From the NCBI GenBank assembly GCA_903927945.1, contig CAIYOZ010000404.1, positions 1-32,214 of the forward strand: DNA of 32,214 nucleotides, written 5' to 3'. Positions 3,004 to 24,562 of this stretch are shown here, one piece after another. The notes beneath the pieces are model-generated. The model worked only from the letters and a program-made list of their open reading frames with translations, was not told where the DNA came from and did no database searches. The translations under genes and the position numbers were made by a program. Position 1 is the first letter of the stretch, and the number at the start of each line of letters is the position of its first letter. The DNA is from an uncultured Bacteroidales bacterium. Its GTDB lineage: Bacteria > Bacteroidota > Bacteroidia > Bacteroidales > Paludibacteraceae.

Positions 3004-3015
3004 TTTAAAAACAAG

Positions 3016-4506: not shown

Positions 4507-4542
4507 CCTTAAACAAGTGTTTCATTTTAAAAAGAATAAATC

Positions 4543-5931: not shown

Positions 5932-5934
5932 CTT

Positions 5935-5968
5935 ATTTAGAAGGAGAACCTTGGTTCTCCTTCTAAAT
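5935..5968 (+). terminator. 16-bp inverted repeat just after the binding-protein gene
   Basis: A near-perfect palindrome (arms 5935-5950 and 5953-5968, core AGGAGAACC/GGTTCTCCT) begins four bases after the stop codon. It is followed by an AT-rich but not purely T tract. It could be a terminator, an attenuator or an mRNA 3'-end stabiliser that raises susCD transcript levels relative to the downstream enzyme gene. Confidence 0.55.
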
Positions 5969-5984
5969 AATAATTGTATTTTTG
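5950..5984 (+). promoter_or_regulatory. Possible internal promoter upstream of the GH30 gene
   Basis: TATTTTTG at 5977-5984 matches the Bacteroides -7 consensus TAnnTTTG. A CTTG at 5950 could be the -33 element, but the 23-base spacing is longer than the usual 19-21. It overlaps the preceding palindrome. If real, it would let the GH30 gene and its follower be made independently of susCD. Weak evidence. Confidence 0.25.
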
Positions 5985-6034
5985 AATAAGAGATTTCAAA
6001 AAAAATACAATTTACACTTTATAATTCCAACACC

Positions 6035-7516: not shown

Positions 7517-7602
7517 TCAGTTGCAATTCAATTCACTAATAATTTTTACTTAATAATTCTATTTTAATAATCAATTAATTTAATCTTTTTAAATTCACTC
7601 TT

Positions 7603-9018: not shown

Positions 9019-9107
9019 ACGATATTACCTGGAAAACACCTATCTATATAAATAGGTATTGACTAGGTATTATATAGGTATTATGTAGGTATTGTATAGT
9101 TATTATC
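9019..9107 (+). repeat. 11-bp-phased inverted repeat element, copy 1
   Basis: Five consecutive 11-bp units begin at 9053, 9064, 9075, 9086 and 9097 (TAGGTATTGAC, TAGGTATTATA, TAGGTATTATG, TAGGTATTGTA, TAGTTATTATC). They are preceded by the core TATCTATATAA (9041-9051) and by two degenerate units in the opposite sense (ATTACCTGG, ACACCTATC). A second copy with the same core lies in the opposite orientation at 24563-24675. Confidence 0.8.
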
Positions 9108-9324
9108 TCATGCCAGTTTAAGTTCAAAGGCATGAACTATTATTCATAAAAGGAGGAGAGAATCATAAGTAATAAAAACGGCATCCAAGTAATCAGGATT
9201 TAACTCGAAAGGTTGTATAACTAAAATTATACAGCTTTTTAGGAATGGGAAATAAGCGATTGATTAATTTCTCCGGAATGAACCGAGGCAATTTTCTTAC
9301 TTTTATTCAAATGATGACTTTGCA

Positions 9325-9356
9325 CTTGTCAGCAATTACAAAAATGAGTACTTTTG
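9325..9356 (+). promoter_or_regulatory. Bacteroides-type promoter of the polysaccharide cluster
   Basis: TACTTTTG at 9349-9356 is an exact match to the -7 consensus TAnnTTTG. CTTG at 9325-9328 lies 20 bases upstream, the expected spacing for the -33 element. Transcription would start near 9363, giving a leader of about 55 bases before the ABC permease gene. Confidence 0.7.
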
Positions 9357-9418
9357 CAATGGAAACAGTAAATTTATTCCTGTTTAATTAATAAAAGGGC
9401 ACAATACTCATTTTTTTT

Positions 9419-10255
9419 ATGGAATATACCACCGTCATCAAACCCAAAAACAAGCTTTTTGAAGTTGATTTTAAAGAAATCTGGCAATACCGCGATTTGT
9501 TTACTATGTTTGTCAAGCGTGATATCATCACTCAATACAAACAAACCATCCTTGGACCGGCCTGGTTTTTTATTCAACCGGCGATCACCACCATTATGTA
9601 TATGATTGTGTTCGGAGGAATAGCCGGAATTCCAACTGATGGACTGCCTCAACCGATGTTTTACCTGGCAGGCATTACTTGTTGGCAATACTTTGCAGAT
9701 TGCCTGAATAAAACATCGTCCACCTTTACAACCAATCAGAATATATTCGGAAAAGTGTATTTTCCCCGAATGATCGTTCCATTATCGACTGTGGCGTCAG
9801 GACTTGTGAGAATGGGCATTCAGTTTCTGCTTTTTGCAGCAGTCTATGTGTATTATCTGATCCTGGGTGTTCATGTTGCTCCTAATATGTATATCTTGCT
9901 TTTACCATTTATTATTCTGGTGCTGGCAGGCTTGTCACTCGGTTTTGGAATTATCATATCCTCCATGACCACCAAGTACCGTGATTTGACCATCCTTTTT
10001 ACCTTTGTAGTACAACTTTGGATGTATGCAACTCCAATTATCTATCCATTAAGCACCATGTCGCCGAAACGTCAATGGATCATGGCACTTAATCCGGTGA
10101 CATCACTGGTTGAAACATTCAAATATGGCACCATGGGTACCGGTACTTTCAGCTGGGGTCAACTGGGATATAGTTTTGGATTTATGGTAGTACTGCTGGG
10201 CATTGGAATAGTGGTATTCAATAAGGTTCAACGTTCATTTATGGACACTGTGTAA
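9419..10255 (+). CDS. ABC-2 type polysaccharide export permease (Wzm/TagG-like)
   Basis: Membrane half of an ABC exporter that moves undecaprenyl-linked O-antigen, capsule or teichoic-acid-type chains to the periplasm. The cytoplasmic N-terminus (WQYRDLFTMFVKRDIITQYKQ) and the following TILGPAWFFIQPAITTIMYMIVFG are hallmark features of this family, and KYRDLTILFTFVVQLWMYATPIIYP is the second signature. About six membrane segments and 278 residues, full length for the family. The start at 9419 is preceded by a promoter and matches family N-termini. Normally the ATPase (Wzt) gene follows at once; here the next gene is a small unrelated membrane protein and no ATPase gene is present anywhere in the window, so its partner must be encoded elsewhere or have been lost. 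Confidence 0.9.
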   Translation: MEYTTVIKPKNKLFEVDFKEIWQYRDLFTMFVKRDIITQYKQTILGPAWFFIQPAITTIMYMIVFGGIAGIPTDGLPQPMFYLAGITCWQYFADCLNKTSSTFTTNQNIFGKVYFPRMIVPLSTVASGLVRMGIQFLLFAAVYVYYLILGVHVAPNMYILLLPFIILVLAGLSLGFGIIISSMTTKYRDLTILFTFVVQLWMYATPIIYPLSTMSPKRQWIMALNPVTSLVETFKYGTMGTGTFSWGQLGYSFGFMVVLLGIGIVVFNKVQRSFMDTV

Positions 10256-10256
10256 G

Positions 10257-10326
10257 TAGTTTATAGTTAATAGTTTACAGTTTATAGTAGGTAGTAAATA
10301 GTTGGTAGTCGGTAGTGGGTAGTTGA
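10257..10326. repeat. TAGTNNN heptad array, ten units
   Basis: Ten units in perfect 7-bp phase starting at 10257: TAGTTTA, TAGTTAA, TAGTTTA, CAGTTTA, TAGTAGG, TAGTAAA, TAGTTGG, TAGTCGG, TAGTGGG, TAGTTGA. The first four bases are fixed (one T-to-C change) and the last three vary. The array begins one base after the ABC permease stop codon. Confidence 0.92.
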
Positions 10327-10329
10327 GCA

Positions 10330-10408
10330 TAACTCTTCAAACTTTTCAAACCCTTCAACTCTTCAACTTTCAAACTCTTAAACTTTTCAAACTCTCAAAT
10401 CCTAAACT
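10330..10408. repeat. 8-9-bp pyrimidine-rich tandem repeats
   Basis: Follows the heptad array directly. Units such as AACTCTTCA, AACTTTTCA, AACCCTTCA, ACTCTTCA and ACTTTCA repeat at 7-9 bp almost to the start codon at 10422. The motif is the complement of the GAAGAGTTT units at 21271-21315, so this family too occurs in both orientations. Confidence 0.75.
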
Positions 10409-10421
10409 CTGATAACTGATT

Positions 10422-10790
10422 ATGCGCTATTTATACGTTTTTGCCACCTTATTTTTTACCGTTTACGGTCAGATGATACTCAAATGGCGGATATTGAAGC
10501 TAAACTGGAGTATGCCTCATACCGGAATCTGGGATATGGTGGTTTCATATACGAAATTTCTATTGGATCCTTTTATATTCTCCGGTTTCTTGTCTGCCTT
10601 TGTAGCCTCTATCTGTTGGTCAATGGCTATGACAAAACTACAGATCACAGAAGCTTACCCGTTTATGAGCCTGGCACCGGCCATTGTATTCATATTGGGT
10701 ATCTGGTTATTGGGTGAAACATTTACCATCGGTAAAGTACTAGGTCTTGTTTTAATAATTTTAGGTGTCATCGTTACTGTAAAGTATTGA
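10422..10790 (+). CDS. Small EamA/SMR-like four-helix membrane protein (possible ArnE/F-type lipid-sugar flippase)
   Basis: A 122-residue protein with four predicted membrane helices: start to about residue 20, about 45-67, 72-95 and 100-120. The third helix region FMSLAPAIVFILGIWLLGE and the C-terminal IGKVLGLVLIILGVIV are typical of the EamA/small multidrug resistance fold. Single-domain proteins of this size beside a GtrB/ArnC-like glycosyltransferase usually help flip undecaprenyl-phosphate-sugar (ArnE/ArnF). The gene is 1 base from the ATP-grasp gene and close to the GtrB/ArnC-like gene at 11898, supporting that role. Multidrug export is the alternative. Confidence 0.7.
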   Translation: MRYLYVFATLFFTVYGQMILKWRILKLNWSMPHTGIWDMVVSYTKFLLDPFIFSGFLSAFVASICWSMAMTKLQITEAYPFMSLAPAIVFILGIWLLGETFTIGKVLGLVLIILGVIVTVKY

Positions 10791-10791
10791 A

Positions 10792-11901
10792 ATGAAGAAA
10801 TTAGCCATCATTGGTGCGAGTTATTTACAATTGCCACTGGTTCGCAGAGCAAAAGAAATGGGAATAGTAACCCATTGTTTCGCCTGGGAAGACGGTGCTA
10901 TTTGTAAAGAGGTTGCCGACTTCTTTTATCCCATATCCATCCTTGAAAAAGAACAGATATTAGAAATCTGCCAACGGGTTTCAATTGATGGCATTACCAC
11001 CATTGCTTCTGATGCGGCTGTTCCTACCGTTTGCTTTGTGGCAGGAAAAATGGGTTTAACAGGCAATGCCTATGAAGATGCGTTGGTAGCAACCGATAAG
11101 TACCGCATGCGGCAGCGTTTTGCCGATTATTCGGTCAACTCACCCAGGTTTGTCATTGCCAATGAAAATTACTCTGTGGATAACTTCAACTATCCACTCA
11201 TTGTTAAGCCTACCGACCGCTCCGGAAGCCGCGGGGTAAAAAAGATAGAACATTCCGATGAATTGAGGGAAGCGGTAGCCCGTGCACAAAACGAATCGTT
11301 TACCCACCATGCCATCATCGAAGAATATATTTCAGGCTCGGAAGTAAGTGTCGAGAGCATCTCCTGGGAAGGAACACATTTTATACTGGCTATTACCGAT
11401 AAGATCACTACCGAAGAACCTTATTTTGTGGAACTTGAACACCATCAACCGAGTATACTTTTCGCCGATGTTCAACAGCGCATAAAAACAGAAACATTGA
11501 AAGCACTTTCAGCCTTGCATATCAACTACGGTGCAAGTCATGCTGAATTTAAAATAACCGACGATGGCAAAGTTTTTGCTATCGAAGTAGGAGCCAGGAT
11601 GGGCGGCGATTTTATTGGATCGCATCTGGTGAAACTCTCTACAGGTTACGATTTCGTGGAAGCAGTGATTGATATTGCCTTGGGACAATTTAAGGAACCT
11701 GAATTACCACAACATAAATCTTCAGGGGTATATTTTTTATGCAAGGAAACAGCACATTTGCTACCCATTATTCAAAATGCAGGCGATTACAATGAAATTG
11801 TAGAATCAGAAATTACAGATAATGAGCTACATGCCATTCAATGTAGTGCCGACCGGAGTGGATACTTTATTTATCAGGCTGAAAAACGATTTAAACTATG
11901 A
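10792..11901 (+). CDS. ATP-grasp carboxylate-amine ligase-like enzyme
   Basis: An ATP-grasp enzyme of 369 residues, unknown substrate. A Rossmann-like pre-ATP-grasp domain (LAIIGASYLQLPLVRRAKEMG, about 1-100) is followed by the ATP-grasp fold: IVKPTDRSGSRGV (137-149) is the nucleotide-binding lysine and glycine loop, EEYISGSEVSVE (177-188) follows, and EVGARMGGD (265-273) is the metal-binding site. A C-terminal domain of about 80 residues has no assignment. Such enzymes activate a carboxylate as acyl-phosphate and join it to an amine or thiol; in a sugar cluster with an amino-sugar transaminase, attaching an amino acid or other acid to the sugar amine is plausible. It overlaps the next gene by 4 bases (ATGA), so the two are translationally coupled. 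Confidence 0.82.
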   Translation: MKKLAIIGASYLQLPLVRRAKEMGIVTHCFAWEDGAICKEVADFFYPISILEKEQILEICQRVSIDGITTIASDAAVPTVCFVAGKMGLTGNAYEDALVATDKYRMRQRFADYSVNSPRFVIANENYSVDNFNYPLIVKPTDRSGSRGVKKIEHSDELREAVARAQNESFTHHAIIEEYISGSEVSVESISWEGTHFILAITDKITTEEPYFVELEHHQPSILFADVQQRIKTETLKALSALHINYGASHAEFKITDDGKVFAIEVGARMGGDFIGSHLVKLSTGYDFVEAVIDIALGQFKEPELPQHKSSGVYFLCKETAHLLPIIQNAGDYNEIVESEITDNELHAIQCSADRSGYFIYQAEKRFKL

Positions 11902-12833
11902 ACAATCCTCATTTATCGATTGTCACGACCTTATACCGTTCGGAACGGTTTTTAGATAAATTCGTGGCACAATGTCAGGAAGCATTGGCTGAAATTAAGT
12001 GCGACAACTACGAAATCATTTTTGTGAATGATGGTTCCCCGGATAATTCCCTGGAAAAGGTGTTGAAATTAAAAGAAACGAATAACAACATTGTAGCAGT
12101 TGACCTATCCCGTAATTTCGGGCATCATTATGCGATCATGGCCGGGTTAACCTGTTCAGCCGGTGAATTGGTTTTTCTGATTGACTGTGATCTGGAAGTT
12201 CCCCCTACTCAAATACCAACCTTCTATAACAAGTTTGTGGAGGAAAAGGAAGTGGATGTCGTATTTGGGATTCAGGAAACACGTAAGGGCTCCTTTATTG
12301 AGAGAACAGTAGGCGGTTTGTTCTATAACTTTTTTAACAGCCTGACCGATACCCGTATCCCTGAAAATTTACTGACCGAACGCTTGATGAGCCGCCGGTA
12401 CGTTAATGAATTAATCACGATGGGGGATAAAAATATATTCATGGCCGGCATGATGCAATGGATCGGTTTTAAGCAAATACCTATCACCATTAAAAAAGGG
12501 CAACGGGAAGGTAAAAGTACGTATACCCTGGGGAAACGGATATCCTTGAGTATGCAGGCTATCACGTCTTTTTCGTCATACCCGTTGGTCATGCTTTTCA
12601 GGTTTGGCTTTTTTATCTCCACCATAAGTGTGATCACCGGTGGTTACTTTCTGATTAAAAAGCTGATATACCCTGAAATTGTCCTCTCAGGATTTACATT
12701 CTTAATCGTTGTACTGCTCTTTTCTACCGGAATTATTATTAGTTCGTTAGGGATACTGGGTATCTATATCGATAAACTCTTCAACCAGACAAAGAATAGG
12801 CAAACTTTCATTATCAAAGAAATTTATAAATAG
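11898..12833 (+). CDS. GT2 glycosyltransferase of the GtrB/ArnC (polyprenyl-phosphate sugar) type
   Basis: Transfers a sugar from a nucleotide donor to undecaprenyl phosphate. The GT-A domain shows LSIVTTLYRSE, VNDGSPDNS (43-51), the family-specific SRNFGHHYAIMAGL (71-84) and the metal-binding DCDLE (96-100). The C-terminal third has two membrane helices (about 230-253 and 268-295), as in GtrB, ArnC and Synechocystis GtrB-like enzymes. At 311 residues it is full length. It is coupled to the ATP-grasp gene by a 4-base overlap. With the small EamA-like protein and the GT-C-like protein at 16095 it could form a complete flip-and-transfer route. Which sugar it loads is not readable; the WecE product is the natural candidate. 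Confidence 0.85.
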   Translation: MNNPHLSIVTTLYRSERFLDKFVAQCQEALAEIKCDNYEIIFVNDGSPDNSLEKVLKLKETNNNIVAVDLSRNFGHHYAIMAGLTCSAGELVFLIDCDLEVPPTQIPTFYNKFVEEKEVDVVFGIQETRKGSFIERTVGGLFYNFFNSLTDTRIPENLLTERLMSRRYVNELITMGDKNIFMAGMMQWIGFKQIPITIKKGQREGKSTYTLGKRISLSMQAITSFSSYPLVMLFRFGFFISTISVITGGYFLIKKLIYPEIVLSGFTFLIVVLLFSTGIIISSLGILGIYIDKLFNQTKNRQTFIIKEIYK

Positions 12834-12852
12834 ATTAAATCGAAGGAATGAT

Positions 12853-13530
12853 ATGAATACTGATCACAAGAAAGTAGTCATTTTTGGAACAAGCGATTTT
12901 GCAAGTCAGGTAAGTTTCTATTTGAAGCAGGATTCTGATTTTGAGGTGGTGGCTTACACAGTGAATGCCGAATATAATCAATCTCAACTATTTTTAGGTT
13001 TACCGGTCGTCGATTTCGAGAAAGTACAGGATACATATCCACCTTCTGAATTTGCCATGTTTATTGCCATCGGGTATCATAAATTAAATGCCACCCGCAC
13101 TACTAAATTCACTGAGGCAAAAGAAAAGGGCTATAAACTGATCAGTTATATCTGTTCCAGAAATTCCTATTGGAACGATCTGAAAATCGGTGAAAATTGT
13201 TTTATCATGGAAGGTAATATCTTTATGCAATCTGTCAGTATTGCCGATAATGTGATCATTGCCATTGGAAATAAGATCGGTCACGATTCAGTGATTGAGG
13301 AGAATTGTTTCCTGACATCAAATATCATGATGGGAGGTTTTTGTACGATCAAAAGAAATACCTTTATTGGATTGAGCACGGTGATCAGGGACAAGGTGAC
13401 CATTCAAGAAAATAACATACTGGGAGCCGGAGCCATTATTTTGAAGAACACGAAGAAAGGAAGTTCATACCTGACAGTTTCAACTTCCTTGACTCCCGAT
13501 CCTAACAATTATATCATGGATTTCATTTAA
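12853..13530 (+). CDS. NeuD/PglD-like sugar N- or O-acyltransferase (left-handed beta-helix)
   Basis: A 225-residue acyltransferase. The N-terminal Rossmann-like domain (VVIFGTSDFASQV, about 7-20) binds the nucleotide sugar in PglD/NeuD enzymes, and the C-terminal hexapeptide-repeat beta-helix carries the catalytic histidine, here H134 in NKIGHDSVIEEN. Relatives acetylate the 4-amino group of UDP- or dTDP-amino sugars. The gene starts after a purine-rich AAGGA stretch 20 bases from the previous stop. Given the acyl carrier protein, reductase and ketosynthase that follow, the donor could be an acyl-ACP rather than acetyl-CoA; that is inference. The repeats are rather degenerate for the family, but the active-site histidine is present. 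Confidence 0.8.
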   Translation: MNTDHKKVVIFGTSDFASQVSFYLKQDSDFEVVAYTVNAEYNQSQLFLGLPVVDFEKVQDTYPPSEFAMFIAIGYHKLNATRTTKFTEAKEKGYKLISYICSRNSYWNDLKIGENCFIMEGNIFMQSVSIADNVIIAIGNKIGHDSVIEENCFLTSNIMMGGFCTIKRNTFIGLSTVIRDKVTIQENNILGAGAIILKNTKKGSSYLTVSTSLTPDPNNYIMDFI

Positions 13531-13565
13531 TATGAGGAACAATATCTTGACTTAATACAAAACAA

Positions 13566-13716
13566 ATAGCACCACATAGCACCACATAGTAAGAACACAT
13601 AGTAATACATAGTCAAATATAATGTGTTTCCAGATCTTTAAAATAATAGATATCTTCAAATTCTAGAAACATTAAACAATGTGGACTATGTTACTATGTG
13701 AACTATGTGTATTTTA
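13566..13716. repeat. Inverted ACATAGT tandem arrays forming a long imperfect hairpin
   Basis: The left arm (13566-13612) holds five ACATAG units with 9-10-bp spacing (CACATAGCAC, CACATAGTAA, ACACATAGTA, ATACATAGTC). The right arm (13679-13712) holds the complement (GTGGACTATG, TTACTATGTG, AACTATGTG). The two could pair around a roughly 65-base AT-rich loop. The same motif forms the same structure at 31262-31435. The gap 13531-13777 has no other feature that I can see. Confidence 0.8.
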
Positions 13717-13777
13717 TTGATTTTCTTAATTGCTTATATTAGAATTCAGATTTTTAAATTAAAACTTATACATATTT

Positions 13778-14011
13778 ATGGAAGCAACAGATTTTATCAA
13801 GAATTTTGCAGCACAGTTCGACGATACAGATGCCTCAGAATTTAACCTGGAAACCCGTTTCAGGGAGCTGGATGAATGGTCATCACTGAATGCGCTGGCT
13901 ATATTGAACATGATTGGTAAGAAATATGCAGTGTTTTTGAAGCCTGACGAAATGAAACCAACCAATACGGTGCAGGAATTATTCGATTTGGTACAGTCCA
14001 AACTTAGCTGA
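13778..14011 (+). CDS. Acyl carrier protein
   Basis: A 77-residue acidic helical carrier protein. The phosphopantetheine attachment serine is most likely S36 in DEWSSLNAL, where the family usually has DSL or DSLNxxxL; the following LNMIGKKYAVFLKPDEM matches helix III of carrier proteins. It is not the housekeeping ACP, which is normally far more conserved around the serine (LGADSLDTVEL). The gene is followed one base later by the FabG-like reductase, with the FabH-like synthase next, so it probably carries an acyl group dedicated to this glycan cluster. Discrete carriers of this sort occur in sugar-acylation and arylpolyene or lipid loci. Confidence 0.85.
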   Translation: MEATDFIKNFAAQFDDTDASEFNLETRFRELDEWSSLNALAILNMIGKKYAVFLKPDEMKPTNTVQELFDLVQSKLS

Positions 14012-14012
14012 T

Positions 14013-14756
14013 ATGAATCCTTTTTCATTAGTTGGAAAAACCATTTTGGTCACCGGTGCTTCTTCGGGCATTGGAAAAGCAATTGCTGTGAGTTGTTCCC
14101 AACAGGGAGCCACCCTCATCATTACAGGGCGCAATGAAGCCAGGTTGTTAGAAACATTATTAATGCTGGAGGGGGAAGGTCATGAAATGATCTGTGCCGA
14201 TCTGACAAAGATGGATGAACTGGAAAAGATGGTGGAAGGATTACCCAAGCTGGATGGCATAGTTTGCAATGCCGGATTAGCTAATCCATTGGTCCTTCAA
14301 TTGACCGAAGCTGAAGATGTCGACAAGATTATGCAGATTAATGCACTTGCTCCGATACATTTGACACGAATCGTGTTGCAGCAAAAGAAATTGAATAAGG
14401 GAGCTTCCCTGGTGTATATTTCTTCTATCAATGGGAATAACTGTGCTTATATTGGGAGTACCATTTATGCAGCCTCCAAGAGTGCACTCACCGGATTTAT
14501 GAAAGGTGTTGCCTTGGAACTGGCACCCCGCGGTATCCGTGCTAATTGCATAAATCCGGGTATGATAGAAACCGACCTGTTGAAGTCAGGTAGTATTGGT
14601 CAGGACGAGCTCGAAAAGGATCGTTTGAAGTATCCGCTTAAACGATATGGAAAACCCGAAGAAGTGGCCTATGCTGCGGTTTATTTGCTATCGGATGCCA
14701 CACAATGGATCACGGGTAGCAGCCTGTTGATTGATGGGGGGTATACGTTGCAGTAA
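14013..14756 (+). CDS. Short-chain dehydrogenase/reductase, FabG-like 3-oxoacyl-ACP reductase
   Basis: NAD(P)H-dependent reductase of 247 residues. The dinucleotide-binding motif TGASSGIG is at 14-21, the NAG structural motif at CNAG (about 86-89), and the catalytic Tyr152 and Lys156 lie in YAASK, with the preceding serine in ISSINGN. The C-terminal AVYLLSDATQWITGSSLLIDGGYTLQ is the classical SDR end. It starts one base after the carrier protein stop, so the two are a unit. It probably reduces a 3-oxoacyl group on that carrier to the 3-hydroxyacyl form, though SDR substrate cannot be proved from sequence and a sugar substrate is possible. Confidence 0.87.
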   Translation: MNPFSLVGKTILVTGASSGIGKAIAVSCSQQGATLIITGRNEARLLETLLMLEGEGHEMICADLTKMDELEKMVEGLPKLDGIVCNAGLANPLVLQLTEAEDVDKIMQINALAPIHLTRIVLQQKKLNKGASLVYISSINGNNCAYIGSTIYAASKSALTGFMKGVALELAPRGIRANCINPGMIETDLLKSGSIGQDELEKDRLKYPLKRYGKPEEVAYAAVYLLSDATQWITGSSLLIDGGYTLQ

Positions 14757-14773
14757 TTGGTGGTTGGTGGATT

Positions 14774-14916
14774 AGTTAATTAGTTAATTGGTTGATTGGT
14801 TGATTGATTGATTGGTTAATTAGTTAATTGGTTGATTAAGTTGATTGAATCATGACTAACTAAATGCTCGATACTCGATGCTTTAAATAGTAAATAGTAA
14901 ATGAATAAATAGTAAA
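14774..14916. repeat. 8-bp tandem array followed by TAGTAAA heptads
   Basis: Eight units in exact 8-bp phase run from 14774 to 14837 (AGTTAATT, AGTTAATT, GGTTGATT, GGTTGATT, GATTGATT, GGTTAATT, AGTTAATT, GGTTGATT). After a short non-repetitive stretch, TAGTAAA units occur at 14888, 14895 and 14910, five bases before the start codon at 14922. The whole gap between the reductase and the synthase is built of such repeats. Confidence 0.85.
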
Positions 14917-14921
14917 TTATT

Positions 14922-15923
14922 ATGAAAGCATATATAAAAGCCATTTCGTATTATTTACCTGAAAAGGTAATCACAAACGAAGACCTGGTAAAGGAATTTC
15001 CTGAATGGACTGTGGAGAAGGTGGCCTCTAAAGTAGGAGTACACGAACGGCACATAGCTTCTGAAAATGAAACAGCTTCCGATATGGCTACCAGGGCTTC
15101 CGAAAAGCTTTTTGCCGAACACGGAATTGATCGCTCCACCATTGATTTTGTCTTGCTCTGCACCCAGAGTCCCGATTACTTTTTACCGACCTCCGCTTGT
15201 TTGATTCAAAACAGGTTGGGATTGTCCACTTCGTGTGGAGCCCTGGATTTTAATCTGGGATGCTCGGGATTTGTATACGGATTATCACTTGCCAAAGGAC
15301 TGATAGCTGGTGGAATCGCTAAAAATGTATTGCTTCTTACCGCGGAAACCTACTCAAAACATATTCACCCGAAAGATAAAGGAAATCGTACTATTTTTGG
15401 TGATGCATCCGCTGCAACCCTGGTATCCACCGAAGGCTTTGCATCCATTGAAGATTTCACATTGGGAACGGATGGCCGTGGTGCCGAAAACCTGATTGTG
15501 CGCAAAGGTGGTCTTCGTCAACCGAAGGCATTAAATGATTTGTCGTTTGATGAATCGGGTAACCCGGATTCATCCGATCATTTGTACATGAATGGAGGAG
15601 AGATATTTAACTTTACTTCCGAGGCTGTACCGGTGCTCGTTGAACAGGTATTGGAAAAGAATCATTTATCAACGGATGATATCGGGTTATTCGTGTTTCA
15701 TCAGGCTAATAAATATATGATGAATTACCTGCGAAAACTTATTGATATCGAACCCGAAAGATTCTACTTTTTCCTGGAGAATGTCGGTAATACAGTATCT
15801 TCCACCATTCCGATTGCTTTGTATGAAGCTCAAAAAGAGGGAAAGCTAAAAGGGAACGTTCTGATTGCCGGCTTTGGAGTGGGGTATTCATGGGGCGCTA
15901 CGGTATTGAAAAGCAGTTTATAG
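14922..15923 (+). CDS. FabH-like 3-oxoacyl-ACP synthase III
   Basis: Thiolase-fold enzyme of 333 residues that condenses an acyl-CoA starter with malonyl-ACP. All three catalytic residues are present: Cys114 in LGCSGFVYGLS, His260 in FHQANKYM and Asn290 in ENVGNTVSSTIP. The C-terminus LIAGFGVGYSWGATVLK is typical. Housekeeping FabH lies with fatty-acid genes; this copy follows an ACP and FabG-like gene inside a glycan cluster, so a dedicated short-chain product such as acetoacetyl-ACP (then 3-hydroxybutyryl-ACP) is likely. An HMG-CoA-synthase-like or alkylquinolone-type activity is less likely. The stop codon TAG is the first unit of a heptad repeat array, and the last codons before it also match the repeat. 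Confidence 0.88.
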   Translation: MKAYIKAISYYLPEKVITNEDLVKEFPEWTVEKVASKVGVHERHIASENETASDMATRASEKLFAEHGIDRSTIDFVLLCTQSPDYFLPTSACLIQNRLGLSTSCGALDFNLGCSGFVYGLSLAKGLIAGGIAKNVLLLTAETYSKHIHPKDKGNRTIFGDASAATLVSTEGFASIEDFTLGTDGRGAENLIVRKGGLRQPKALNDLSFDESGNPDSSDHLYMNGGEIFNFTSEAVPVLVEQVLEKNHLSTDDIGLFVFHQANKYMMNYLRKLIDIEPERFYFFLENVGNTVSSTIPIALYEAQKEGKLKGNVLIAGFGVGYSWGATVLKSSL

Positions 15924-15997
15924 TTTATAGTTTATAGTCGGTAGTTTATAGTTTATAGTCGGTAGTGGATAGTAAGTAGTTTATATGCAGTAGTTTG
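15914..15997. repeat. TAGTNNN heptad array overlapping the 3' end of the synthase gene
   Basis: Twelve units in perfect 7-bp phase from 15914: CAGTTTA, TAGTTTA, TAGTTTA, TAGTCGG, TAGTTTA, TAGTTTA, TAGTCGG, TAGTGGA, TAGTAAG, TAGTTTA, TATGCAG, TAGTTTG. The first unit and the TAG of the second are coding sequence and stop codon of the upstream gene. Confidence 0.93.
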
Positions 15998-16015
15998 GGT
16001 TGATAGTTGCATTAT

Positions 16016-16090
16016 TTCATCATTAATCCAATCATTAATCCAATCATTTCACTTATCACTTATCGTTTATCATTTTCACTTATCACTAAT
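16016..16090. repeat. CATTAATCC and CACTTAT tandem repeats up to the next start codon
   Basis: CATTAATCCAAT occurs twice from 16021, then units in 7-bp phase (one of 6) from 16050: CACTTAT, CACTTAT, CGTTTAT, CATTTT, CACTTAT, CACTAAT. The last unit ends four bases before the start codon at 16095. Confidence 0.8.
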
Positions 16091-16094
16091 TTAC

Positions 16095-17561
16095 ATGCAT
16101 ATATCCGGAAAAAAGCAACCTGTCAATAAACGAAACAACACACAAATTTTCGTGAGTTTATTGCTGATTACTTCACCCTGGATTGTCTTGTTTGTTACAA
16201 CCCGGCTACTATTCCATCATTCTGTCTTTAACTCCGTCCCTTGCTGGTCGGATGAATTATCATACTGGCATGAAGTACTTTCGTTCTCTCAAAAAGGTTT
16301 CAATTTTGGGTATTATACCATAAATGAAGTCTTGCCTCACTATTTATCTTTCGGTTCACACGGTTTTGGGACTGTTTCTATGTATGCCTTGTTTGCTAAG
16401 ATTTTTGGCTGGAAAGCTTACTCCCTGGTGTTGGCCAATACGTTCATTCTTTCGGTTGCGTTTCTAGCGTTTACACTTCTCGTAAGAACATCCTCCCTGA
16501 ACCTGGTTATTATTTTATTTTTTACCCTGACTTTCGCCCCGCTCGTTCTTTTCTCACCAACTTCTATGAGTGAGTTGTTGAATTTATCCCTCATGATTAT
16601 TTACGTGGGAATCCTTCATCGTTATTTTAGAAATGAAGGAAAGAAATGGCTCATCTTATTTCTGATTTTTTGTACTGCTATTTCATTTATCCGGATCATC
16701 TACATTATTCTTTTTTTACCCGTTTTGTTTAAAAGAAAGAATGAGTTCAGGTTTGATAGTAAATTCTTATTTTCAGTTATTATTTGGATCACTTTCAGCG
16801 GAATCTTGTTTGTGATTAATAATTTGTTTGTATCACCCTATCCGGATTCCTTCCTGAGCGACCTGTTTAAAAGTCATGGATTTGTTAGCTTTATGAGTAA
16901 TTTTACGATTCATTTTGTCCAAAACTTGTGGAACTTTATCAATCCGTTATCCGAAAACATGATTCAGGTTCTGCAACGTTATTTTGTCATTTTAGTGTGT
17001 TTGTATTCTTTGATTAAATCGAACCTGCTACAAACAAAACATAAAAAGTTAGAAATTGAGTATTTTATAGTATTTTTGATTTTGTTTTTGTTCCTGTTCA
17101 TTACCATAGCTGCCTATGATGTGTTTGACTGGCGAGATTATAGGGTATTGGCACCTGTTTTGTACGGTTGCATGTTGTATCTACTCTTAATTCAGAGAGA
17201 TAAAATCGTTTACAGCCTGATAGGGATGAATATACTTGGGATCGTATTTATGCTTATTTCACCGCAAGTGTTAGAATCATTCAATAACGGCAGATACGAT
17301 AAACCAGTAAAGAACACTTTGTTGAGCGGCATTGAATATACAGATTATCCGAGGTCAGGATTCGAAAATACAATCGTGGTCAATCAATTTGATACAAATA
17401 CAGTGATGAATATCCCGGCCGGAATTGGGATTAGTTTTTCGGAAATATTATCAGACACCTTAAAATCGAATTATGTATATTCGAAAAACAAACTTAAACT
17501 TACGACTTATAAACTGATCAACTCTAATACTTCAGGTTATTTGTACAGAAAGCTCAAATAA
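16095..17561 (+). CDS. Polytopic membrane protein, probable GT-C-fold glycosyltransferase
   Basis: A 488-residue protein with about ten or eleven hydrophobic helices and no lipobox. After the first helix (about 18-40) the periplasmic loop has CWSDELSYWHE (D53, E54), the position where GT-C enzymes such as ArnT and PMT/GT39 keep an acidic DE pair for sugar transfer from a polyprenyl phosphate. The C-terminal 90 residues are soluble. I do not recognise a named family, and the DE motif is the only functional clue. Position between the FabH-like and acyltransferase genes fits a periplasmic transferase of the glycan cluster. A polymerase (Wzy-like) is the alternative, but Wzy proteins rarely have this N-terminal loop. 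Confidence 0.55.
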   Translation: MHISGKKQPVNKRNNTQIFVSLLLITSPWIVLFVTTRLLFHHSVFNSVPCWSDELSYWHEVLSFSQKGFNFGYYTINEVLPHYLSFGSHGFGTVSMYALFAKIFGWKAYSLVLANTFILSVAFLAFTLLVRTSSLNLVIILFFTLTFAPLVLFSPTSMSELLNLSLMIIYVGILHRYFRNEGKKWLILFLIFCTAISFIRIIYIILFLPVLFKRKNEFRFDSKFLFSVIIWITFSGILFVINNLFVSPYPDSFLSDLFKSHGFVSFMSNFTIHFVQNLWNFINPLSENMIQVLQRYFVILVCLYSLIKSNLLQTKHKKLEIEYFIVFLILFLFLFITIAAYDVFDWRDYRVLAPVLYGCMLYLLLIQRDKIVYSLIGMNILGIVFMLISPQVLESFNNGRYDKPVKNTLLSGIEYTDYPRSGFENTIVVNQFDTNTVMNIPAGIGISFSEILSDTLKSNYVYSKNKLKLTTYKLINSNTSGYLYRKLK

Positions 17562-17600
17562 TTAATCTAAAGTGGCTTATATAACCTTAAATACTGAATT

Positions 17601-18689
17601 GTGTTAATAAGTATAAAACCCAAAACCCAAATAAATTATACTTTGTCGATATCAGATACGTTGATAATCAAAGGAGTTGCCATTTGCTTCATGCTTTGGC
17701 ATCATCTGTTTTATCAGTATTCAGAATACAGGGAATGGGTTCAAAATGCTGCTTTTTTGGGAAAAGTATGCATTGCCATGTTTGTATTTGTAAGTGCTTA
17801 TGGTTTAACGATTCAATATGAAAAAATAGATATTCACAAGTTCCAGGTACCAGGTTTCAGGGATACGCTTAAATTTCAAGGGAAACGGTTGTTAAAGCTT
17901 TATATAAATTATTGGGTTGTTTTTATACTATTTGTACCGATAGGCGTTTATTTCTTTCATAGGAGTTTACAGGCTTCATATGGTGCAGATGCCAATTATT
18001 CAATGAACCTGGTTATTGATTTACTGGGTATGAAAGGTTTTCAATCCTACAACATTACCTGGTGGTTTTATCAGGTGATTATTATACTCTATTTGGCTTT
18101 TCCAATCTTGTATATCGCTCTAAAAAAATTAAACATATTCATATTATCACTGTTTTTTCTGATTTTAGTTTTTCCTTTCATTGTCGTACCCTTTGTACAT
18201 CTTTGGCTTTTCCCTTTTGCACTTGGAATCAGTTGTGCATTGAAAAGAGAGAAGATTTCTTCATTCTTGAATCGTACGGATTGGAAGATACTGTTTCTCT
18301 GTAATTTGATTTTATTATTTTCAGTAGCTTATTTAAAGTTGGACGAATGGCTGTTTGGTGGGATAGGTATGGATGGTTTCTTTACATTAACCTTGATTTT
18401 CTTTATCATAACTACCCTTCGTCAAGTGAAAATAGTAACTCAACTGTTTCTGTTTTTAGGTAAACATTCAATGAATATCTTTATGATTCACACTTTTATA
18501 TATAGTTATTTCTATTCCGGATTTATTTATTCTTTCAGGAATCCCGGATTAATATTCATTATTTTGTTAACAAGTTCACTAAGTATTTCAATCCTGATAG
18601 AGTATGGGAAGAAAATGCTTGGAATATATCGTTTGGAAACTAAAATCATTGATTTGTTTTTAACGACCAAATCAACTACAAACTATTAA
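17601..18689 (+). CDS. Acyltransferase-3 family membrane O-acyltransferase (OafA/WecH-like)
   Basis: Ten-helix membrane acyltransferase that decorates sugars, often with acetyl groups. The N-terminal DTLIIKGVAICFMLWHHLF carries the family's arginine/lysine-plus-helix start and the essential histidine pair (H34, H35). The later FLGKHSMNIFMIHTFIY (about 290-310) is the second family signature. Length 362 residues is normal for a single-domain member. The start used is GTG at 17601; no ATG is available before the first family motif, and a TTG at 17643 is the other option. The 3' end, coding for the last residues NY, lies inside a heptad repeat array. Confidence 0.83.
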   Translation: MLISIKPKTQINYTLSISDTLIIKGVAICFMLWHHLFYQYSEYREWVQNAAFLGKVCIAMFVFVSAYGLTIQYEKIDIHKFQVPGFRDTLKFQGKRLLKLYINYWVVFILFVPIGVYFFHRSLQASYGADANYSMNLVIDLLGMKGFQSYNITWWFYQVIIILYLAFPILYIALKKLNIFILSLFFLILVFPFIVVPFVHLWLFPFALGISCALKREKISSFLNRTDWKILFLCNLILLFSVAYLKLDEWLFGGIGMDGFFTLTLIFFIITTLRQVKIVTQLFLFLGKHSMNIFMIHTFIYSYFYSGFIYSFRNPGLIFIILLTSSLSISILIEYGKKMLGIYRLETKIIDLFLTTKSTTNY

Positions 18690-18730
18690 TTACCGCCTAT
18701 TAACTACCCACTATAAACTATAAACTAAAA
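18675..18730. repeat. ACTANNN heptad array (complement of TAGTNNN), spanning coding end to next start
   Basis: Eight units in 7-bp phase from 18675: ACTACAA, ACTATTA, ATTACCG, CCTATTA, ACTACCC, ACTATAA, ACTATAA, ACTAAAA. The first two are the last codons and stop of the acyltransferase; the last ends three bases before the wecE start codon at 18734. The gap contains nothing else. Confidence 0.9.
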
Positions 18731-18733
18731 AAA

Positions 18734-19888
18734 ATGATTCCTTTCAACAAACCATATCTCACCGGAAAAGAGGCACATTACATGTATGAAGCAGTATTCA
18801 CAGGCAAATTATCCGGTAACGGCATGTTTACCCAACGTTGCCAGGCCTATTTTGAACAACGCTTTGGATTTAAAAAATGCCTGCTAACCACATCCTGCAC
18901 CGATGCGCTCGAAATGGCTGCCATATTATGCGATATAAAGCCCGGAGACGAAGTGATCATACCTAGTTATACATTTGTATCAACTGCCCTGGCATTCGTG
19001 CGTCAGGGAGCTAAAATAGTTTTTGCCGATAGCCAGGCCAATCACCCGAACCTGGATGTCGATCGCATTGAAGCGCTAATTAATTCCAAAACCAAAGTGA
19101 TTGTTCCTGTTCATTATGCAGGTATGGCCTGCGATATGGATCAGATTATGGCACTTGCTGCTAAGTATAATTTGCTGGTGGTAGAGGATGCAGCCCAGGC
19201 GATTGATTCTTATTATGTTCCCACTACCGGGGATGTTGAAGCAACCCCGAGACCATTGGGAAGTATTGGACACCTGTCAGCTTTCTCCTTTCATGAAACG
19301 AAGAACATTATTTCCGGTGAAGGTGGCATGCTGGCCATTAACGACGATCGCTTTATTCACCGTGCCGAGATCATTTGGGAGAAAGGGACCAATCGTGCAG
19401 AATTCTTCCGGGGTGAAGTCAATAAATACGGATGGGTGGATATAGGTTCTTCCTTTTTGCCTTCCGAAGTCATTGCCGCTTTCTTATGGGCGCAGGTGGA
19501 GCAACTGGATGTCATACAGGATAAACGAAAACAACATTGGAACCGGTATTATGAAGCCTTAAAACCACTTGCCGACAAGGGATATTTCAGTATACCGGCT
19601 ATTCCTGATTATGCCACCAACAATGCTCACATGTTTTACCTGGTGTGTCCTTCCCTGGATGAACGTACAAAACTGATCAACACCTTAAAACAAAACGATA
19701 TACTGGCTGTCTTCCATTACCTGAGTCTGCACAGCAGCCCTTACTATACCGATAAACACGATGGACGGGTATTGCCCAATTGCGATATGTTTACCGATTG
19801 CCTGGTCCGACTGCCGTTGTTTTATGAGCTAACTAATGAAAACCTGGATAAGATTATTGAAACTATTAAGTCAGTATATAGTATGTAG
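18734..19888 (+). CDS. wecE: dTDP-4-amino-4,6-dideoxygalactose transaminase (WecE/RffA)
   Basis: PLP-dependent DegT/DnrJ/EryC1/StrS transaminase that converts dTDP-4-keto-6-deoxyglucose to dTDP-4-amino-4,6-dideoxy-D-galactose (dTDP-Fuc4N) with glutamate as donor. Similarity to E. coli WecE as I recall it runs end to end: start MIPFN, TRRC-like TQRCQ, PGDEVIIPSYTFVSTA, VIVPVHYAGMACDMD, EDAAQ, FSFHETKN, EKGTNRAEFFRGEV and LAVFHYLSLH. The Schiff-base lysine is K190 in FHETKN. A nine-residue insertion (YVPTTGDVEATPRP region) precedes it relative to E. coli. The dTDP-glucose genes rmlA and rmlB are not in the window. The product is the best clue to the sugar made by this cluster. The TAG stop is part of a heptad array. 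Confidence 0.93.
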   Translation: MIPFNKPYLTGKEAHYMYEAVFTGKLSGNGMFTQRCQAYFEQRFGFKKCLLTTSCTDALEMAAILCDIKPGDEVIIPSYTFVSTALAFVRQGAKIVFADSQANHPNLDVDRIEALINSKTKVIVPVHYAGMACDMDQIMALAAKYNLLVVEDAAQAIDSYYVPTTGDVEATPRPLGSIGHLSAFSFHETKNIISGEGGMLAINDDRFIHRAEIIWEKGTNRAEFFRGEVNKYGWVDIGSSFLPSEVIAAFLWAQVEQLDVIQDKRKQHWNRYYEALKPLADKGYFSIPAIPDYATNNAHMFYLVCPSLDERTKLINTLKQNDILAVFHYLSLHSSPYYTDKHDGRVLPNCDMFTDCLVRLPLFYELTNENLDKIIETIKSVYSM

Positions 19889-19934
19889 TCGGTAGTAAGT
19901 AGTAAGTAGTAAATAGTAGATAGTAAGTAGTAAA
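19872..19934. repeat. TAGTNNN heptad array overlapping the wecE 3' end
   Basis: Nine units in phase from 19872: CAGTATA, TAGTATG, TAGTCGG, TAGTAAG, TAGTAAG, TAGTAAA, TAGTAGA, TAGTAAG, TAGTAAA. The wecE stop codon is the first three bases of the third unit. It forms an inverted pair with the array at 19973-20063. Confidence 0.93.
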
Positions 19935-19972
19935 AGAAGTGGTGTAATAAGTTTACTTTACCCTCTATCCAC

Positions 19973-20063
19973 ACTACCGACTACCGACTCCCGACTCCCG
20001 ACTCCCGACTCCCAACTACCAACTACCGACTATTAACTACCGACTATTAACTACAAACTAATT
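19973..20063. repeat. ACTANNN heptad array ending three bases before a start codon
   Basis: Thirteen units in perfect 7-bp phase from 19973: ACTACCG twice, ACTCCCG three times, ACTCCCA, ACTACCA, ACTACCG, ACTATTA, ACTACCG, ACTATTA, ACTACAA, ACTAATT. It is the reverse-complement type of the preceding array, so the whole gap 19889-20066 could fold as a hairpin around about 38 unrelated bases. Confidence 0.93.
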
Positions 20064-20066: not shown

Positions 20067-21257
20067 ATGCATAAAAACCGAATAATTCCGCCTATCCTCT
20101 TTTTGTTATTGTTTGCCGCCTATTATACTTTGTTAAAAGTAATACCGGCTGATTATAACGACATACACGATCATGCTGCGTTTGCCCGTCAAATGTGTAC
20201 GGGAGAAATACCCTATACCGGGAATTTTTTGGTATACCTGTTGGTGAATGTATTCTCTTTTTTTAGTGCAAGTGTAACTCCTTCCGAAGTCAGTCTATGT
20301 GGTTTGCTGGCTTTCGCAGGTGTTTACCGTTTTTACCTGGCTCAACATGAAATAGCGGATGTGATGGAAAAGGATGTAAACTTACTCTCTAACTACTGGC
20401 ACACTGCTTTCATTTCGCTCAGCATGTTGTTTGTATTTGCCATTCCTATTCCAAGCTTCTTTACGGATGATAAATACATGTATATTGGTAATTATGTACC
20501 GAATGTATGGCATAATTCCACCATCCTTTTTTTATTCCCTTTTGCCTTGTTGCTTTTTGACTTATCATTCCGGCAATTACAAGAATATAACAGCAAGAGG
20601 AACATTTGGATTCTTTTGTTGATTTTACTGAATCTGGTGATTAAACCAAGTTACTTTTTTGTGTTTATTATTGCCTATCCGATACTTTTATTGGTCAGGT
20701 ACAAGTTTAATAAGGAATTCTGGATGAGTGTTTTGCCGTTGATCATTGGATTCTTCTTTTTGATGCTGGAGTACTGGGTGATCTACAAAACCCAGAAGCC
20801 ATCCGGCAGTGAAAGTTCTTCGGTCATATTCATGCCTTTTTACCGAAATCCGGCCTTTGGTGATGCAGGCAAGATGCCCGTATTCGATGATTTAAGCATG
20901 ATCCCTGTATCTATGTTTTTTTCACTACTTTTTCCGTTGCTTTATTCCCTCTTCAATTTACCCTTTGTTCTCAAAAGTCGGTTGTTCTGGTATACTTTCC
21001 TGTCTTTTATTATTTCGATCCTGATATTCTTCTTTATTTCCGAATCGGGTCCACGCGCATCGCACGGCAATTTCTACTGGCAAATCGTTATCTGCACCTG
21101 GTTCTGTTTCTTTGTCGCCTTGTTGGCCTTGCTCAAAGATTTTAAAACGACAGGTAAATCGTATAAGAATGTCTTTTTGGCTTCTGTGTTCTCAGTACAT
21201 GTCCTTATGGGAATCATTTATTTTGTCAGGATACTGGTTACCGGGAGTTATTATTGA
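20067..21257 (+). CDS. Polytopic membrane protein of the glycan cluster, function unknown
   Basis: A 396-residue protein with about nine hydrophobic helices. After the first helix there is a short polar loop with ADYNDIHDHAAFA (D32, H34, D35, H36), reminiscent of the acidic first loop of GT-C glycosyltransferases, and a second periplasmic loop holds FTDDKYMYIGNYVPNVWHN. I do not recognise a named family. It is the last + strand gene of the cluster and is followed by repeats, with a gene on the other strand beyond. A periplasmic glycosyltransferase or a polymerase are the reasonable options; neither is proved. Confidence 0.5.
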   Translation: MHKNRIIPPILFLLLFAAYYTLLKVIPADYNDIHDHAAFARQMCTGEIPYTGNFLVYLLVNVFSFFSASVTPSEVSLCGLLAFAGVYRFYLAQHEIADVMEKDVNLLSNYWHTAFISLSMLFVFAIPIPSFFTDDKYMYIGNYVPNVWHNSTILFLFPFALLLFDLSFRQLQEYNSKRNIWILLLILLNLVIKPSYFFVFIIAYPILLLVRYKFNKEFWMSVLPLIIGFFFLMLEYWVIYKTQKPSGSESSSVIFMPFYRNPAFGDAGKMPVFDDLSMIPVSMFFSLLFPLLYSLFNLPFVLKSRLFWYTFLSFIISILIFFFISESGPRASHGNFYWQIVICTWFCFFVALLALLKDFKTTGKSYKNVFLASVFSVHVLMGIIYFVRILVTGSYY

Positions 21258-21270
21258 TAAGTGATTGTTT

Positions 21271-21364
21271 GAAGAGTTTGAAGAGTTTGAAGAGTTTGAA
21301 GAGTTTGGAAAGTTTCGTGTTCCGTGTTCCGCGTTCCGTGTTCCGCGTTCCGTGTTCCGTGTTC
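21271..21364. repeat. 9-bp array fused to a GC-rich 7-bp array
   Basis: Four perfect GAAGAGTTT units (21271-21306) and one GGAAAGTTT are followed without a gap by seven heptads from 21316: CGTGTTC, CGTGTTC, CGCGTTC, CGTGTTC, CGCGTTC, CGTGTTC, CGTGTTC. The switch from 9- to 7-bp period and from AT- to GC-rich within one base is striking. Confidence 0.93.
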
Positions 21365-21434
21365 CATGACAAGTGACTAATCAACAGTCAAATGATAGTT
21401 TCATTAATTAAGTAAGATTCGATTTTCTTGTTTT

Positions 21435-21469
21435 AATCACTAATCACTGATCACTAATCGTTAATCACT
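21435..21469. repeat. AATCACT heptad array
   Basis: Five units in 7-bp phase (AATCACT, AATCACT, GATCACT, AATCGTT, AATCACT). The array ends four bases from the stop codon of the minus-strand gene at 21474. The motif resembles the CACTTAT units at 16050-16090. Confidence 0.88.
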
Positions 21470-21473
21470 ATTT

Positions 21474-24375: not shown

Positions 24376-24562
24376 GGACAGATATTCTTACATTAGATTT
24401 TATCCCTGCAAAACTACTCATTATAGTTGAAGTTATCCATATTCCTGTTAATTATTTTATTCTTAAACTCTCGTATTCCCATTGCTAAGTTGAACCATTA
24501 TCTATTATGCAAGTTCAATACCCATTCGGTGCTGGTTCTATGCCCAGTCGCTACTGATTTTA

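Follow-up and report, generated by a model that had tools for sequence, protein, structure and literature searches.

In this report, we demonstrate that the tandem heptads found between the genes of a 32,214-nt stretch of DNA from an uncultured Bacteroidales bacterium (the window) are laid out with an almost uniform polarity relative to the gene borders. The repeating unit is TAGTNNN. The left end of a spacer reads TAGT and the right end reads ACTA, independent of the direction of the genes, with the C-poor strand bearing AGT facing outward. Degenerate AGT-heptad arrays of this kind are dispersed, account for much of the intergenic DNA of this bacterium and its relatives, and occupy the borders of genes across the genus as well as in at least one further order of the class. 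Five arrays in the window had been named in a sequence-only reading of the DNA, and all of them were located in exact 7-bp phase, as follows:

10257-10323 (+): TAGTNNN array of 10 units (one CAGT), 1 bp past the stop of the ABC-2 permease gene at 9419-10255
15914-15994 (+): TAGTNNN array of 12 units (one CAGT, one TATG), starting within the last codons of the FabH-like gene at 14922-15923 and giving its TAG stop
18675-18727 (-): ACTA-strand array of 8 units (two imperfect), ending 6 bp upstream of the DegT aminotransferase gene, whose ATG is at 18734
19872-19931 (+): TAGTNNN array of 9 units (one CAGT), starting 17 bp inside the 3'-end of the DegT gene (18734-19888)
19973-20060 (-): ACTA-strand array of 13 units (four GAGT), ending 6 bp upstream of the ATG at 20067; the convergent partner of 19872-19931

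The window contains 19 overlapping matches to the four-unit pattern TAGTNNNTAGTNNNTAGTNNNTAGT, whereas 100 dinucleotide shuffles of it gave none, and the runs are thus commoner than in shuffled sequence. As had been noted earlier, the gaps of 3004-8778 and 28.3-30.6 kb are without arrays. Three shorter arrays had also been proposed; the run at 8912 was recovered with a weak score of 10, and those at 14888 and 24720 fell below the array threshold. The arrays are not confined to the glycan cluster. The genome of the window (G000, 4.47 Mb in 450 contigs) contains 182 matches to the four-unit pattern, compared with 10 for the reversed control. The window constitutes 0.7% of this genome and is array-rich, with 19 matches against the 182 of the whole genome.

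At least one TAGTNNN match was found in 29 of 35 genus mates. The matches exceeded the reversed control in 27 of the 35, fell below it in 6, and were zero together with the control in 2. In the other families of the order, 4 of 24 genomes contain matches, and the control was equally high in two of these. Across the phylum, matches were found in 49 of 198 genomes, with a higher control in some (5 vs 78 in G182). The genus mate G015 is a single contig of 3.69 Mb and carries arrays, and the arrays are therefore not an artefact of draft assembly. They probably do break assemblies, because several draft contigs end at arrays; contigs C67, C74, C162, and C163 of G000 end in or directly beside them. 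The wider pattern of six AGTNNNN units gave 128 matches in G000 and 8 for the reversed control, and it reveals other words in genus mates, including AGTTYYG in G006 and AGTGAWC in G015. With this pattern, the reversed control was near or above the matches in several genus mates (118 vs 80 in G005, 48 vs 42 in G015, and 31 vs 48 in G017).

A scan for periodicity that uses no predefined word was applied to 41 stretches of G000 (433 kb), consisting of the window, 20 stretches at matches, and 20 arbitrary contigs. Genes were called by a longest-open-reading-frame script, and the starts may sit too far upstream (as seen in loci L022 and L025), which weakens the distances measured from starts. The scan returned 54 intergenic arrays of period 7, with none in one shuffle per segment and none in 366 kb of called coding DNA, as expected from the earlier claim that the arrays are intergenic rather than coding. 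For period 4, 43 arrays were found, compared with 8 in the shuffle, and 9 were within coding DNA. The other intergenic periods, multiples of 4 and 7 included, were 8 (30 arrays), 9 (9), 11 (11), 12 (7), and 14 (9); periods 5, 6, and 10 gave only 2, 2, and 0 arrays, respectively. Spacers between two genes hold 48 of the period-7 arrays, 31 of them TAGT arrays and 17 built from other words. Within the TAGT arrays found without a word, the column majority was 0.89-0.95 in the four core columns and 0.56-0.67 in the others. The pattern of four fixed and three variable bases is therefore not produced by searching for TAGT. The tests with shuffled sequence, coding DNA, and column majorities together support the description of the arrays as non-random, intergenic, and fixed-plus-variable.

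The polarity was determined for G000, for G015, and for five genomes with TTAGTNN-type words from one family (f29) of another order of the class (the class-mates). All 20 stretches from the class-mates were picked at known matches, as were 32 of the 61 from G000 and G015 (the window counted); the listing used for this gave the strand and not the gene neighbors. In spacers containing both strands, TAGT came before ACTA in 20 of 20 cases (7 in G000, 3 in G015, and 10 in the class-mates), a count that requires no choice of side. Spacers with a single strand were outward in 57 of 65 cases overall and in 11 of 12 from the class-mates. Individual TAGT arrays were outward in 38 of 40 cases for G000 (of the 49 arrays listed, the 40 whose spacers are flanked by called genes on either side were counted), 17 of 22 for G015, 6 of 6 for loci L021-L027, and 2 of 3 for loci L028-L062. 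At gene starts, the values for G000, G015, and L021-L027 were 9 of 9, 7 of 9, and 4 of 4, respectively.

The same polarity was obtained for the arrays of G000 found without a predefined word. Among the period-7 arrays, the outward strand is richer in G than in C in 14 of 14 cases for starts and in 30 of 32 for stops, where one array is opposite and one is tied. Among the period-4 arrays, the same holds in 14 of 16 cases for starts and 19 of 24 for stops. The corresponding values are 2 of 3 starts and 5 of 5 stops for period 9, and 5 of 5 starts with a 2:2 division at stops for period 8. The period-4 arrays at the starts of G015 and G005 have no polarity (5:6 and 3:4, respectively). The G-C skew in G000 was determined to be +0.162 at stops and +0.111 at starts for spacers with arrays, and +0.003 and +0.027, respectively, for array-free spacers. 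An outward skew of array spacers is also present in G015, and array-free spacers show nearly none. Generic flank composition can thus be ruled out as the source of the skew, since the array-free spacers are almost without it.

The arrays abut the genes. For spacers of G000 that are at least 90 bp long, the position of the array edge nearer to the gene was determined. At stops, this edge was no more than 20 bp away in 24 of 26 cases, with a median of 3 bp before the gene end (the stop codon itself); at starts, it was equally close in 6 of 10. The counts for stops and starts were 6 of 6 and 2 of 6 in G015, and 10 of 13 and 4 of 10 in the class-mates. The stop codon is TAG in 20 of 29 G000 genes with an array at the stop, compared with 54 of 285 others (Fisher p = 5e-8), and in 9 of 12 genes of G015 with an array there, but only 3 of 12 of the class-mates. 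One visible effect of the arrays is that they supply the stop codon to many genes. The annotation of such genomes should allow for arrays that provide the stop codons and the last residues of many genes. The FabH-like protein is the clearest example. The border after its gene is held by six of eight loci (the window and L021-L027), and in all six the protein ends with TVLK followed by two to six unlike residues. AGT heptads start 2-17 bp past TVLK in each of the six, with words that differ by genome.

Arrays at one border also differ among relatives. An ACTA run immediately precedes the DegT start in the window and, judged by eye, in L021, L022, L023, L025, and L027; it is short in L024 and lacking in L026. 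The gene after DegT is orthologous in L022 (72% identity) and L025 (63%), and the spacer between the two genes varies. In the window it consists of 178 bp of arrays; in L022 it is only 3 bp long, and in L025 it measures about 39 bp from the aligned start and contains no array. In the genus set, every spacer with a TAGT array is bounded by a stop at one end or both, with 0 of 77 divergent spacers containing such an array, compared with 63 of 550 others (p = 3e-4). For the class-mates, 2 of 12 divergent spacers contain TAGT arrays. When all array families of the genus set are counted, the difference is not significant (12 of 77 divergent spacers vs 116 of 550). A single spacer of L022 (about 5740-6000) holds three types of tract by eye: AAGAACC heptads after the stop, CTCAAAC heptads, and ACTA units before the ATG.

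The three bases that follow TAGT had been thought to vary freely, and this was found not to be the case. A purine occupies position 7 in 242 of the 261 TAGT units of G000, the triplets TTA (72) and CGG (36) account for 108 of the 261, and the variable positions are interdependent (0.24-0.33 bits). A gradient along the arrays, with TTA near and CGG far, holds in G000 but the G runs in the opposite direction in G015, and it was not used. The triplet identity in G000 was 0.163 within arrays and 0.109 between loci (1.5 times), 0.054 to G015, and 0.005-0.013 to the class-mates. The values within and between loci were 0.071 and 0.089 for G080 and 0.136 and 0.102 for G143. Plain replication slippage, doubted already in the earlier reading, thus appears insufficient, with the units of one G000 array only 1.5 times as alike as those of other loci and the units of G080 less alike.

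Some duplication of blocks of n x 7 bp does occur. The triplet identity at lag 1 and lag 2 is raised (0.189 and 0.227 vs 0.156 and 0.157, respectively), and the G000 arrays contain 28 repeated two-unit blocks (14.0 when shuffled) and 12 repeated three-unit blocks (1.6 when shuffled). Slippage in steps of seven contributes, because of this block duplication and the likeness within arrays of G015, G229, and G143. Different loci of G000 have three-unit strings in common in 28 pairs, compared with about 10 when shuffled; four-unit strings common to any pair of loci were not found, and nothing thus indicates that long tracts were copied recently. Only 22 of 7912 18-mers are common among 32 array spacers, and the six printed examples are all from one pair. 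Both a genome-wide list of words and local duplication are at work, to extents that vary from one genome to another, and simple copying errors alone do not seem to explain the pattern. As a separate observation, two spacers of L198 from G143 (2987-3226 and 9111-9363) contain a stretch after the TTAGTNN array that is nearly identical by eye (GATTCGGAAAGTG.GACTGAATA.TGAGACTGA); here, a longer repeat adjoins an array.

The cyanobacterial STRR are intergenic heptameric tandem repeats. REP/BIME and MITE elements are dispersed, intergenic, and often arranged as inverted pairs. The arrays described here are unlike the REP/BIME and MITE elements in that almost no common sequence is found beyond the arrays and a Y1 transposase is dispensable.

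Two published heptad systems can be compared directly. The portion of Rehm et al. (2015, PMC4692102) consulted here describes GGGNATC heptads in two Xanthomonas genomes and one Nostoc genome, which have a G-quadruplex (G4) motif and a preference for four units, and for which no function was found. These heptads lie at most 50 bp past a stop on the sense strand, or before a start on the antisense strand. They overlap stops, form some convergent pairs, are rare between divergent genes, and conserve their place while the sequence changes. Within that portion of the article, the period of 7, the genome-wide and intergenic occurrence, the placement, the overlap with stops, the occurrence of some convergent pairs, the constancy of place under changing sequence, and the strand rule are common to the GGGNATC heptads and the TAGTNNN arrays. 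The arrays differ in that a two-tier G4 motif was found in only 2 of 49 arrays of G000, 0 of 26 of G015, and 0 of 32 of the class-mates, and a search for a three-tier motif identified 1 of 49, 0 of 26, and 0 of 32, respectively. Judged by motif, an identity as G-quadruplex repeats was therefore rejected. They also differ from that account in the mixed words and the period-4 and period-9 families of the same polarity in G000. The outward rule was previously published for G4-capable heptads and was discussed in that light. The heptads and tetrads without the motif obey the same rule, which suggests that G-quadruplexes are not its general reason.

The second system consists of exact direct repeats of TAACTGA, described in the consulted portion of MacGregor (2015, PMC4679880) for Beggiatoaceae, Cyanobacteria, and five Bacteroidetes; one of the five, Paludibacter propionicigenes, has two sets. 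In a Beggiatoa genome, 147 of 170 sets are directed toward the start codon, and one set of F. litoralis that follows a stop is reversed. As far as that portion extends, these repeats resemble the arrays in being heptads whose AGT strand (TCAGTTA) is outward, and differ in being one exact word rather than degenerate words. Exact TAACTGA repeats (TAACTGATAACTGA) were found 0 times in the window and in 1 of 240 fetched loci. The sequence-only reading knew of no described Bacteroidales family of this pattern. To the extent that no paper on TAGTNNN was found in the open-licence literature searched, this claim stands, although such a search is not proof of absence; related heptads have been published in PMC4679880 and PMC4692102. 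The consulted portions of these two articles describe neither degenerate lexicon arrays nor the outward rule in heptads without G4 potential, and no other paper on either was found in the same literature. The common lexicon now makes the long-open question of why these are heptads, and why they lie beside genes, testable.

We tentatively favor a reading that falls well short of even probable, in which the arrays are written, rather than merely amplified, by outward synthesis in a 7-nt register from 3'-ends at the gene borders. DNA synthesis in this register, by slippage and short-range template switching, would start from a 3'-end at a gene border and would proceed outward into the spacer, adding units from a genome-specific word set. 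The units would be laid on one strand only, the C-poor strand that bears AGT, and both borders of one spacer would be extended toward each other. Selection would afterward eliminate arrays that fall within coding sequence and most of those in divergent promoter spacers. Outward growth from 3'-ends would give one polarity for both kinds of gene end and for several word families; the edge of the array would lie on the gene border, and the left and right arrays would not need to match. In G000 they match no better than chance, with a likeness of 15.5 within a spacer vs 15.4 between spacers (p = 0.47, n = 23) and p = 0.12 in a second test. We infer that growth starts at 3'-ends and that the polarity comes from the direction of growth and not from selection. 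Outward growth is offered as a proposal drawn from the sequences.

A number of results weigh against this proposal. Among the obvious candidate enzymes, reverse transcriptase (PF00078) was not found in G000 or in the array-rich genomes G003, G014, G016, and G019; the Y1 transposase was not found in G003 or G006; and Ku was found only in G000, 1 of 60 genomes. The polarity has exceptions. Five of the 22 TAGT arrays of G015 are not outward; three of these fill spacers of 31-46 bp alone, and two lie just past the middle of long spacers. The period-11 arrays of G000 disobey the rule (0:2 at starts and 5:1 at stops), and the start-side skew is absent from the array spacers of two other sets of Bacteroidota loci (-0.013, n = 16, and -0.033, n = 4). 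In a small sample from G195, of another class, four TAGT arrays are outward and three inward, the order is 1:2, the spacers are mostly filled end to end, and the period-7 skew at stops is 5:4. The orientations of the TAACTGA repeats in Microcystis are mixed in the consulted portion of PMC4679880. In the class-mates, the left and right arrays of one spacer do match somewhat (21.1 vs 16.1, p = 0.0096). Local duplication is evident from the triplet identity within and between loci in G015 (0.229 vs 0.065, 3.5 times) and G229 (0.242 vs 0.130, 1.9 times). Selection could also create the polarity: TAGT arrays are lacking in the 77 divergent spacers of the genus set, though not in those of the class-mates (2 of 12).

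The other samples from beyond the class are small as well. TAGT arrays are outward in 1 of 1 case in G239, where one of two period-7 arrays has the opposite skew, and in 2 of 2 cases in G115, with none in G252. The outward rule is not established beyond the class. As for the candidate makers, reverse transcriptase, the Y1 transposase, and Ku were each rejected as required, being missing from some array-rich genome. The Ku gene of G000 is located at C316:4137-4667 and was found in none of the 59 relatives searched; it is either bin contamination (4.6%) or a recent gain. The general loss of mismatch repair was also rejected, since MutS is present in 32 of 36 genomes, including the array-rich G000, G003, G004, G005, G014, and G016. 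MutS was not found in the array-rich G019, which is 85% complete.

The strongest rival, which is possible but doubtful, is selection at the level of RNA. RNA that enters a gene from outside, whether sense RNA by way of the 5'-end or antisense RNA by way of the 3'-end, reads the C-rich, G-poor strand of the array, and arrays of the wrong polarity would be lost. Leaders would stay unstructured, or a Rho site would stop untranslated (antisense) RNA while translated sense RNA passes, or both. The C:G ratio of the inward strand is 5.5 for G000, 3.8 for G015, and 2.3 for the class-mates. The corresponding numbers of YC steps per 78 nt are 5.2, 5.1, and 2.8, and this composition fits Rho-loading tracts (C-rich, G-poor RNA) as predicted from sequence. 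Most of the GGGNATC heptads are transcribed, according to the consulted portion of PMC4692102. The divergent spacers of the genus set, devoid of TAGT arrays, are as expected, but they fit equally well with simple promoter avoidance, and 2 of 12 divergent class-mate spacers hold such arrays. Array-free gene ends almost lack the outward skew, and it is therefore not generally required. The heptad register and the lexicon are left unexplained, and a Rho site just before a start codon would presumably endanger sense transcription too.

It is unlikely that the arrays are ordinary microsatellites, which would form by local slippage and be purged from genes by selection; the polarity would originate from the stop codon (TAG+T) and from inverted template switching into the spacer. 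The repeated blocks, the raised identity at lags 1 and 2, and the within-array likeness of G015 and G229 all agree with this explanation, as does the prevalence of TAG at the array-bearing stops of G000 and G015. A heptad bias of polymerase slippage has been proposed in the consulted portions of both PMC4679880 and PMC4692102. However, the units within an array of G000 or G080 are nearly as unlike as those of different loci, and TAG is not favored in the class-mates. Moreover, among codirectional spacers with arrays, 10 of 47 from the genus set and 4 of 16 from the class-mates have an ACTA array at the start but no TAGT array at the stop side, and MutS is present in most of the array-rich genomes.

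The possibility that the arrays are binding sites had been raised from the sequence and is kept as a candidate, although a distinctly unlikely one. A protein with a 7-nt step, such as a cold-shock-type OB-fold on single strands, would select for TAGT and allow the other three bases to drift. The strict phase and the difference between fixed and variable columns in the arrays found without a word are in line with this explanation, and CspB binds heptamers, one protein each, according to the consulted portion of PMC4679880. One binder would not explain the arrays, however, because several unlike words (TTRR, TTTGAAGAG, and ATCACTT) coexist in one genome with one polarity. The context of the core differs between genus mates, and the interdependence of the variable bases shows that the triplets act as words. 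The readings based on growth, selection, and binding predict different outcomes when strains are compared and when the polarity of an array is swapped.

Intergenic hairpins of the REP/BIME or terminator type, with the left and right arrays as the arms of a stem, are improbable. The convergent order in 20 of 20 spacers, the near-perfect palindromes seen by eye in L191 and L196, and the matching of left and right arrays in the class-mates all favor this arrangement, and bases are paired across the middle at 0.39 in the two-sided spacers of G000, compared with 0.22 in array-free ones. But the matching in G000 is not above chance, the folding energy is -0.182 kcal/mol per nt for the two-sided (15) and the array-free (35) spacers alike, and many spacers are one-sided or contain different families on either side. 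A matched hairpin in G000 was rejected on the chance-level matching of the arms and the unremarkable folding. The earlier suggestion of terminators is not supported, as the folding is no more stable than in array-free spacers and convergent spacers are not enriched (7 of 82, compared with 56 of 468 codirectional). Very improbable is an active, telomerase-like end-writing without PF00078 in members of this class, in which a polymerase would extend intergenic 3'-ends with C-poor lexicon heptads, the ends would then be joined, and the G4 heptads and TAACTGA repeats would likewise be its products; if true, many intergenic spacers would be largely written DNA. The dispersal of MITEs and recent long-tract gene conversion can be dismissed with almost no common sequence outside the arrays and no sharing of four units, and the latter result also speaks against the recombination tracts that had been suggested.

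Other repeat tracts of the window are found at the following positions:

10339-10410 (-): degenerate CTTCAAA/AACTCTT tract ahead of the next gene (10422); the outward strand is TTTGAAGAG-like
14761-14841 (+): period-4 TTRR array (TTGG/TTGA/TTAA/TTAG), 4 bp past the stop of 14013-14756
16050-16071 (-): CACTTAT heptads near the next gene (16095); the outward strand is GATAAGTGATAAGTG
21254-21324 (+): period-9 TTTGAAGAG array after the stop of 20067-21257
21303-21377 (+): period-7 GTGTTCC array within the convergent spacer 21258-21473
21429-21476 (-): period-7 ATCACTN array at the right gene border; the outward strand is of the AGTGAT type

The TTRR tract at the border of 14761-14841 is also found in L021 and L022, and not in L024, as read by eye. 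Period-11 arrays (AGGTATTATAT and AGGATAACCCA) are located in longer spacers at 9043-9114 and 24551-24629 of the window and in L106, L108, L112, L115, L120, L127, L133, and L136. They do not obey the outward rule and may form a family of their own. In the window spacers 13531-14012 and 31231-31462, the left side carries irregular CATAGT words and the right side ACTATGTG-like ones; by eye, they have the polarity of the heptads without the 7-bp phase. Another convergent pair, which does not occur in heptads, has CCCCTAAAGGGG on the left and CCCCTTTAGGGG on the right, as in L102 (10815/10982), L112 (5678/5823), L109 (10872/10922), L024 (6494/6587), L151 (19815/19921), and L153 (18115/18185). The CCCCTTTAGGGG word was found in 20 of the 240 fetched loci (L004 and L102 being the same place), often as inverted pairs.

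Ten proteins near the arrays of the window were scanned against Pfam, and the matches include an ABC-2 permease, an EamA-like protein, a family-2 glycosyltransferase, an SDR, a FabH-like synthase, an acyltransferase, a DegT aminotransferase, and an aldo/keto reductase; two of the ten gave no match. Because of this content, the label of glycan cluster is a fair one. Among named genomes, the DegT protein is matched best in Paludibacter metagenome-assembled genomes (82-89% identity), a Bacteroidota bin (88%), and uncultured Bacteroidales. No Rfam family was found at the arrays, and the sole Rfam match in the window at the gathering score is a DUF805b RNA (RF02914) at 28321-28353 (-).

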